64,000 bases of DNA, from assembly GCF_000025625.1 (NCBI RefSeq), contig NC_013922.1, forward strand, positions 2,232,001 through 2,296,000. Reading direction: 5' to 3'. The notes under the pieces are model-generated. The model had not been told where the DNA came from. It searched no databases and was given only the letters and a program-made list of their open reading frames with translations. Source of the DNA: Natrialba magadii ATCC 43099 (lineage in GTDB: Archaea > Halobacteriota > Halobacteria > Halobacteriales > Natrialbaceae). Below, in pieces: positions 26,025-27,484 of this stretch. The first letter of the stretch is position 1, and each line of letters opens with the position of its first letter. The translations under genes and the position numbers were made by a program.

Positions 26025-26624
26025 TTAGAGCTCTTCGATACTGCCGTCTGCTTCGCGCTCGCGGAACACTTGCCCTTCGAAGAGTGTAACGACAACGTCG
26101 TCGTCCTGCCAGGCACCGGGGGCGAGTTTGGCCTTGCGGCAGGTTCGATCGAGATACTCACGTTTGCTCCAGCCGTTTTCGACGGGCACTGTCGGGTAGA
26201 GCCAGCCGCCCTCGCCGCCGTCGATGGCAACCCCGTGCGTGCCGAGTTCGAGATCTGCAAGCGGGTCGTCGGTGAGGACGACGTTCTTGACCGTACAGAC
26301 CGAGACTGTGAGATTCGGTAGTTCGGAGGGACTCACTTCGGAGCTACAGGAGTCCTCGCTCGCGGCTTCGATCGCTGCATCGACGATGACGTGACCGAGT
26401 TGCTCACCAGAGCGGTAGCCGCCGGCGCAGCCGCGCAGGCTGCCGCGACCGCGAGTGGACTCGAGACGAACGAACGCACCAGTTCGCTCGTAGAAGCTCT
26501 CGCGCATGCTGCCTGGTTGTTCTCGTTGGCCATGTTCGACGTAGGATTCGACGGCTTCACGCGCGAGTTCAACCGCTCGTGCACCGTCTTCGTAGGAAAG
26601 GTTGACGCCCTGTCCCTGGGACAT
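26025..26624 (-). CDS. AMMECR1-domain protein
   Basis: A 199-residue protein of the conserved AMMECR1 family (TIGR00296). The hallmark LRGCAGGY (LRGCIG in most members) lies at about residue 60, and FVRLESTRGRGSLRG just before it is typical, as is GGWLYPTVPVENGW later. The biochemical role is unknown, though proximity to radical chemistry and MEMO partners has been suggested for relatives. ATG 26624 is chosen over 26636. It is transcribed convergently with the nicotinate phosphoribosyltransferase and divergently from RNase P RNA. Confidence 0.9.
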   Translation of the reverse strand: MSQGQGVNLSYEDGARAVELAREAVESYVEHGQREQPGSMRESFYERTGAFVRLESTRGRGSLRGCAGGYRSGEQLGHVIVDAAIEAASEDSCSSEVSPSELPNLTVSVCTVKNVVLTDDPLADLELGTHGVAIDGGEGGWLYPTVPVENGWSKREYLDRTCRKAKLAPGAWQDDDVVVTLFEGQVFREREADGSIEEL

Positions 26625-26780
26625 ACACGTGTACATGAGACAGTCGTCCTAAAACGCTTCCATTCGTTTCGACCGTCAAACCACCGGGTGGTATCATCCT
26701 ACTGGTGACATGTATTGCGAGTATCGACAGTCGGCTGCGGGTTCGACCGAGGGACTTATTCACCAGTAGCACCTAGAAAT

Positions 26781-27363
26781 GGTGGAGAGAGAGCCTGGCT
26801 GCCGCGGCGGCCATGCTGGTAACAGGATGGCTGTACAACGCGGGCCACCCCGCTGGGGTGTCCCGCGCTGACCGTTGGCCAACCCTCTGGGTTGCCCAGC
26901 GCTCTTACCGTTGCCCGACTCTCCGAGTCGCGCAACGCTCGCGAGGAAAGTCCCCCCACCTGTTCGGGCAGGTGACCGGACGCAAGTCCGGAGCGGGAGA
27001 CCGCTGGCTCTGGAACAGAAACGACACGTCTCGGCCTGACCGATGATGCGCGCGAACCCGACCGAGAGGAAGGGGAGCTGACCCGCAGAGGGAGGGCGAC
27101 TCAGAGCGCCTCCGGCGCGAAAGTCACCTTATGCGAGACGGCGTGAGCCGTCGAGCCCCGTGTGGTCGATCGATCGCGGTTCGAAACCGCGGGTTGCGCA
27201 CGTCGTAACCGACCGCACGGAGACGGCCGAGGATCGATGGAACGGCGAACCCTCACCGGTGCAAGTCCGCGCCGTGGTAGCCCGAACACCGCGGCCTCGC
27301 CGCGACGGCGCGGACGCTCAGCCGAATGCCGGGATGAACAGAAGGGGGCTTACTCCTCTCACC
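26781..27363 (+). ncRNA. rnpB: RNase P RNA
   Basis: Conserved region I is recognised as GAGGAAAGTCC (26942-26952), and the 3' conserved region as ACAGAAGGGGGCTTAC (27338-27353); GGTGCAAGTCC lies between them. The 5' end GGTGGAGAG pairs with the 3' CTCTCACC as helix P1, which sets the ends. A TATA-like GACTTATT lies about 27 bases upstream. At about 583 nt it is longer than the 430-500 I expect for haloarchaeal RNase P RNA; the extra length is a triple hairpin insert before conserved region I. Confidence 0.93.
26840..26936 (+). repeat. three homologous stem-loops inserted in RNase P RNA before CR-I
   Basis: Hairpins at 26840-26866, 26874-26900 and 26910-26936 are each exactly 27 nt and share one plan: 5 bp, a C-C or C-U mismatch, 6 bp, and a three-base loop (GCT, TCT, TCC). 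Linkers are GCTGACC and GCTCTTACC. Stem sequences differ but pair perfectly (CACCCC/GGGGTG, CAACCC/GGGTTG, CGACTC/GAGTCG), so they evolved with compensatory changes. They occupy the P3 position. Confidence 0.85.
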
Positions 27364-27484
27364 GTCTTACACCCTGTACCGATAGGTATACCCTGTGTCT
27401 GGTGGCTCGCTTGTGCGACTCGCTGTCTGTATTCTTTGAGCGGAGTGACGAACCGACAGTCGAAGAACGGGTGGTACGCCAGCG

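Follow-up and report, generated by a model that had tools for sequence, protein, structure and literature searches.

The window analysed here, i.e., a 64,000-nucleotide stretch of the Natrialba magadii ATCC 43099 genome, contains the complete gene of an archaeal RNase P RNA (rnpB), which extends from about 26781 to 27364 on the + strand. RNase P RNA is a textbook example of a conserved ribozyme and belongs to an essential tRNA-processing enzyme. The divergent neighbour of the gene (26025-26636, - strand) looks like an AMMECR1-domain protein. A covariance-model search of the 4,443,643-base genome returned rnpB as the sole match to the archaeal family RF00373, at window positions 26912-27355, with a score of 110 bits for a gathering cut-off of 84. 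The window RNA has the same conserved regions CR-I to CR-V and the same helices P1, P2 and P4 as the other archaeal RF00373 RNAs, and P1 and P2 close the catalytic domain around P3. It departs from them in a usual, although not strictly defining, trait of this family: whereas their P3 is a short single hairpin, that of the window RNA is an arm of 143 nt with four hairpins. The features of the gene, all located on the + strand, are as follows.

26755..26760, + strand: TATA-like box CTTATT of the rnpB promoter, placed by the position of the TATA-like motif in the family genes
26781..26793, + strand: 5' strand of P1, where the mature RNA probably begins, pairing with 27353-27363 in the fold
26794..26799, + strand: 5' strand of P2 (CCTGGC), pairing with 27328-27333
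26800..26942, + strand: expanded P3 arm, 143 nt, from the 5' strand of P2 to CR-I
26808..26833, + strand: hairpin P3a, with 7 bp, a G.G mismatch, 3 bp and a GUAA loop (fold z = -6.0)
26839..26867, + strand: module 1, CGCGGG.C.CACCCC.GCT.GGGGTG.T.CCCGCG (module model, 41.4 bits)
26873..26901, + strand: module 2, CGTTGG.C.CAACCC.TCT.GGGTTG.C.CCAGCG (module model, 42.6 bits)
26909..26937, + strand: module 3, CGTTGC.C.CGACTC.TCC.GAGTCG.C.GCAACG (module model, 49.0 bits)
26943..26953, + strand: conserved region I (CR-I), GAGGAAAGTCC, start of the 5' side of P4 (RF00373 alignment)
27328..27333, + strand: 3' strand of P2 (GCCGGG), from the P2 pairing across relatives
27353..27363, + strand: 3' strand of P1, from the fold; the RF00373 match ends at 27355

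The true start of the RNA is at about 26781, in P1, and not at the position 26912 given by Rfam. This is because P2 is paired across the array (98.5% of standard pairs among 121 relatives, with some compensatory changes), because the TATA-like motif lies 32-34 nt upstream of the conserved P1 sequence GAGAGAGCCYGGC in 113 of the 121 family genes, and because RF00373 independently gives the 5' boundary of P1 in 49 of the 51 relatives with no or one module, which it delimits correctly. On the contrary, in all the family genes with at least two modules (70/70), RF00373 loses the 5' end, i.e., the first 58-294 nt, and places the start inside the array; in the window, it falls within the third hairpin. 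Public rnpB annotations of Natrialbaceae may thus be wrong at their 5' end.

The P12 region of the window RNA (27050-27215) is also enlarged, with about 164 nt that are not aligned to the Rfam model, which agrees with the P12.1/P12.2 growth reported for Halobacteria. Modules of the P3 type were looked for in this region and none was found.

Homologous hairpins with a fold under selection

The P3 stretch (153 nt) folds at -86.1 kcal/mol (z = -5.5). The preliminary description had recognized three homologous hairpins in P3, directly 5' of CR-I, and both their number and their position are borne out by our analysis. It had overlooked a fourth hairpin, P3a, which lies 5' of the three modules. A GNRA loop is found at the P3a site in 108 of the 112 relatives with an enlarged P3, and its retention suggests a tertiary contact. 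Each window module is made of 29 nt, with two 6-bp stem segments separated by a 1x1 mismatch (C/U, C/C and C/C in modules 1, 2 and 3, respectively) and capped by a 3-nt loop; the first count, of 27 nt with 5 bp in the outer segment, had missed the outermost C-G pair. As for the linkers, which had been said to share GCTNNNACC, this is the case of linker 2 (GCTCTTACC) and not of linker 1, which reads GCTGACC. We defined a module family with its covariance model, R1, to which the three window modules belong with scores of 41-49 bits, scores that are not independent since these modules were part of the training set. This model recognizes only these three places in the 4.44-Mb genome (E-values of 4e-8 to 4e-6), the next match elsewhere having an E-value of 3, and thus found no module outside rnpB in N. 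magadii.

The alignment of relatives, proposed beforehand as a check, revealed structured units at this place rather than random sequence. To describe their pairing, we used two sets of modules. For the set based on position only, we took from each of 112 family genes the last, or terminal, module, 5 nt before CR-I, while ignoring pairing, which gives 100 distinct sequences: 87.6% of their positions are paired, compared with 26-48% after shifting the register by 1-6 nt. In the other set, of 82 distinct modules, 97.5% of the cells pair, compared with 26-47% when slid, a value biased towards pairing because these modules were selected with a pairing filter. The compensatory differences noticed between the stems of the window's own modules are also found across these 82 modules, with changes on both sides at 8 of the 12 pairs and a covariation score of 0.55, which drops to 0.21 in shuffles and does not exceed 0.09 in slid registers. 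The mismatch is retained as well: only 24-28% of the modules could pair at this position, and C.C is the commonest mismatch, in 103 of all 169 modules and in 48 of the 100 terminal ones. We demonstrated by this sequence comparison that the modules are homologous and that their fold, with its retained 1x1 mismatch, is under selection, as the preliminary description had proposed for the structure.

Conservation is not uniform along the stem. Change is saturated at pairs 4-6, 9, 10 and 12, whereas pairs 8, 11 and 13 display a one-sided C-G conservation: among the 100 terminal modules, pair 11 is C-G in 87 and G-C in none, and pair 8 is C-G in 81. This conservation of C-G at pairs 8 and 11 and of the C.C mismatch, which exceeds the needs of a bare stem, hints at a specific recognition rather than at a mere insulation.

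Number, order and possible exchange of modules across Natrialbaceae

The P3 arm lies inside an RNA closed by P1 and P2, and its module number ranges from 0 to 5 across the family. Among the 121 Natrialbaceae genes, its length increases by steps of about 36 nt and clusters at 17-27 (i.e., no module), 71-76, 102-112, 139-146, 178-184 and 215 nt. Outliers are few (e.g., 55, 66 and 79 nt), and five Halovivax-like genes are longer or irregular (164-289 nt). In four genes of one Halovivax-like genus (L090, L092, L095 and L123, genus g11), P3 measures 247-289 nt, and most of its hairpins are too irregular for the strict module scan to resolve. The R1 model finds a match in 88 of the 125 family genomes. 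Outside Natrialbaceae, a one-module form is present in one related group, which includes Halostella (f7 g35). The weak R1 matches obtained in five genomes of other families (G215, G159, G180, G202 and G187) are located away from rnpB and were taken as chance.

Module number varies inside 10 genera. In Natrialba, N. chahannaoensis has one module, strain SSL1 and the window three, and N. hulunbeirensis four, while N. asiatica, N. aegyptia and N. taiwanensis have one module plus a different hairpin. In one genome (G079, gene L026), the whole array has been lost and P3 is a bare 26 nt, while its congeners have one or two modules. G079 shares its genus group with Halobiforma haloterrestris. A tree built on the rnpB core gives at least 39 changes of copy number, but it requires 44 changes of genus instead of the 28 that are sufficient; because this tree breaks genera, we used the within-genus variation instead. 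The triplication had been called old: the module is indeed family-wide, but the number and the order of modules change within Natrialba itself. A salt adaptation, also put forward, is not supported by this distribution, since P3 is mostly of 14-60 nt in the other haloarchaeal families sampled and since one Natrialbaceae genome, G079, has the bare P3 mentioned above.

The modules belong to a small set of recurring types (TTGC-CGACTC, TTGG-CAACCC, TGAT-CATCCC, TGGC-CATCTC and others). Nine identical 29-mers are common to at least two genera, often at differing positions in the array; module 3 of the window, for instance, recurs letter for letter as module 2 of N. hulunbeirensis and in the arrays of two further genera, so that this 29-mer is present in three genera. 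In another gene (L063), the third module matches, base for base, the reverse complement of a module from another genome, which converts the C.C mismatch into G.G. Judging from these sequences, the pattern looks like recombination of whole cassettes, and convergence is possible too, given the few permitted types. A growth by recent head-to-tail duplication was rejected, as none of the 71 adjacent pairs reaches 90% identity (0/71). An avoidance of similar modules within arrays, which selection against misfolding would produce, was not significant, 135 of 1000 shuffles being as low.

Possible roles of the array

We consider it fairly probable that the array is a lineage-specific, fold-constrained and dispensable P3 expansion of a working RNase P RNA, consisting in the window of P3a and three 29-nt modules. 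Such an array would evolve by recombining whole modules, through gain, loss, permutation, inversion and exchange between lineages. Each module would fold on its own, the array forming a peripheral appendage that protrudes from P2/P3, and selection would mainly keep each module self-contained, the ribozyme core working without the array. Any benefit would most likely lie in contacts around P2-P3, the place of Rpp30 and Pop5 in the Methanocaldococcus jannaschii enzyme. In this holoenzyme, where P3 is short, Pop5 occupies the P2/P3 junction, while Rpp30 contacts the P2-P3 of the partner RNA (PMC6565675). Because Rpp30 and Pop5 sit there, an array at P2-P3 must avoid or replace the Rpp30 contact. 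A protein- or Rpp30-contact role for the array is plausible.

Several other readings were weighed against this dispensable expansion. Each module could dock one copy of a haloarchaeal RNA-binding protein through its C.C mismatch and conserved C-G pairs, copy number tuning the assembly or the localization of RNase P. The retention of C.C and, in stems whose pairs 4-6, 9, 10 and 12 are saturated with change, the one-sided C-G of pairs 8, 11 and 13 point in this direction, and eukaryotic P3 expansions do bind proteins (PMC12974513). On the other hand, copy number ranges from 0 to 5, some family members have no array, and at least one inverted module carries G.G instead of C.C. Moreover, the obvious candidate is Alba, whose eukaryotic homologues, Rpp20/25, bind P3, and a search for it (PF01918), positive in the controls M. 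jannaschii and S. acidocaldarius, detected it in none of the 28 Natrialbaceae genomes searched. We thus rejected an Alba platform modelled on the eukaryotic P3, and regard the docking of one protein per module as unlikely. The enlarged P3 could also support Rpp30 in cis, as the eukaryotic P3 does with its proteins, which would allow the enzyme to work as a monomer and not as a dimer, where Rpp30 rests on the partner's short P3. The contact of M. jannaschii Rpp30 with the P2-P3 of the other protomer, whose P3 is short (PMC6565675), is consistent with this, as are the location of the 70-290-nt arm exactly at that site and the GNRA loop kept by P3a. However, close relatives with a P3 of 17-27 nt exist, so that both forms would have to be workable, and we hold this support in cis to be less probable still. 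The literature searched yielded no structure of a haloarchaeal RNase P. A broader proposal, which we find doubtful, would combine both ideas: exchangeable cassettes (0-5, gained, lost, inverted and swapped), each docking a haloarchaeal protein or supporting Rpp30 in cis, would amount to an equivalent of the eukaryotic P3 domain that is built of RNA and evolved separately.

The behaviour of the modules also recalls a selfish or mobile hairpin acting at the DNA level and lodged in rnpB by chance: their order differs between species, some are inverted, and identical ones are common to several genera. But no copy was found beyond rnpB in the N. magadii genome, viral contigs searched with three module-type patterns gave no match, and the rnpB gene has no similarity in plasmid and phage records; covariation and the retained mismatch point, moreover, to selection at the RNA level. 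This origin is therefore very improbable. Hardly credible at all is an array processed out of the precursor and taking no part in the mature RNA: the array is internal to both P1 and P2, the modules have 1x1 mismatches and not the bulge-helix-bulge needed for archaeal splicing, and the keeping of their structure in so many lineages would lack a reason.

Whatever its role, the array is of direct relevance to the P2-P3/Rpp30 contact, to which the M. jannaschii enzyme owes its dimeric form. One family repeatedly adds a countable, self-contained module to a conserved ribozyme, and this natural copy series (0, 1, 2, 3, 4, 5) can be used to ask if an RNA expansion segment is functional or tolerated baggage.

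Comparison with other expanded RNase P RNAs

In the open literature searched, we found no description of a haloarchaeal P3 array, older mentions in classical comparative papers being possible, nor any publication on RNase P RNA with Natrialba, Natronobacterium gregoryi or Halococcus. This silence is likely due to the Rfam model, which cuts off P1-P3 in every multi-module gene.

Arrays of another kind exist in haloarchaea. In the Halococcus group (L239, L245 and L267) and in two other genes (L258 and L259), P3 is a row of two or three small hairpins of about 14 nt (GTGCC.AGCG.GGCAC), apparently unrelated in sequence to the Natrialbaceae modules and probably of independent origin. Tandem repeats inside the RNase P RNA gene, as in the Natrialbaceae array, were reportedly described by Vioque in 1997 in heterocyst-forming cyanobacteria, whose rnpB contains STRR repeats. 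These are short simple repeats, present elsewhere in those cyanobacterial genomes too. Unlike them, the Natrialbaceae unit is a covarying hairpin of 29 nt found only in rnpB.

Concerning P3 itself, the same helix of RNase P RNA is enlarged in eukaryotes (ES 3.1, PMC12974513). The eukaryotic form consists of an internal loop and an additional helix to which RNase P proteins bind, whereas the P3 of Natrialbaceae, whose 28 genomes searched lack Alba, is a string of separate homologous hairpins of variable number. The P12.1/P12.2 growth of Halobacteria likewise enlarges a peripheral arm of haloarchaeal RNase P RNA, but it affects another helix, in the S domain, and no repeated modules are described for it in the text consulted (PMC12974513), where archaeal RNase P RNAs are presented as mostly reduced. 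Hence, P3 growth in eukaryotes and P12 growth in Halobacteria were already known (PMC12974513), and what appears to be new is an expansion segment built from exchangeable hairpins in the P3 of haloarchaea.
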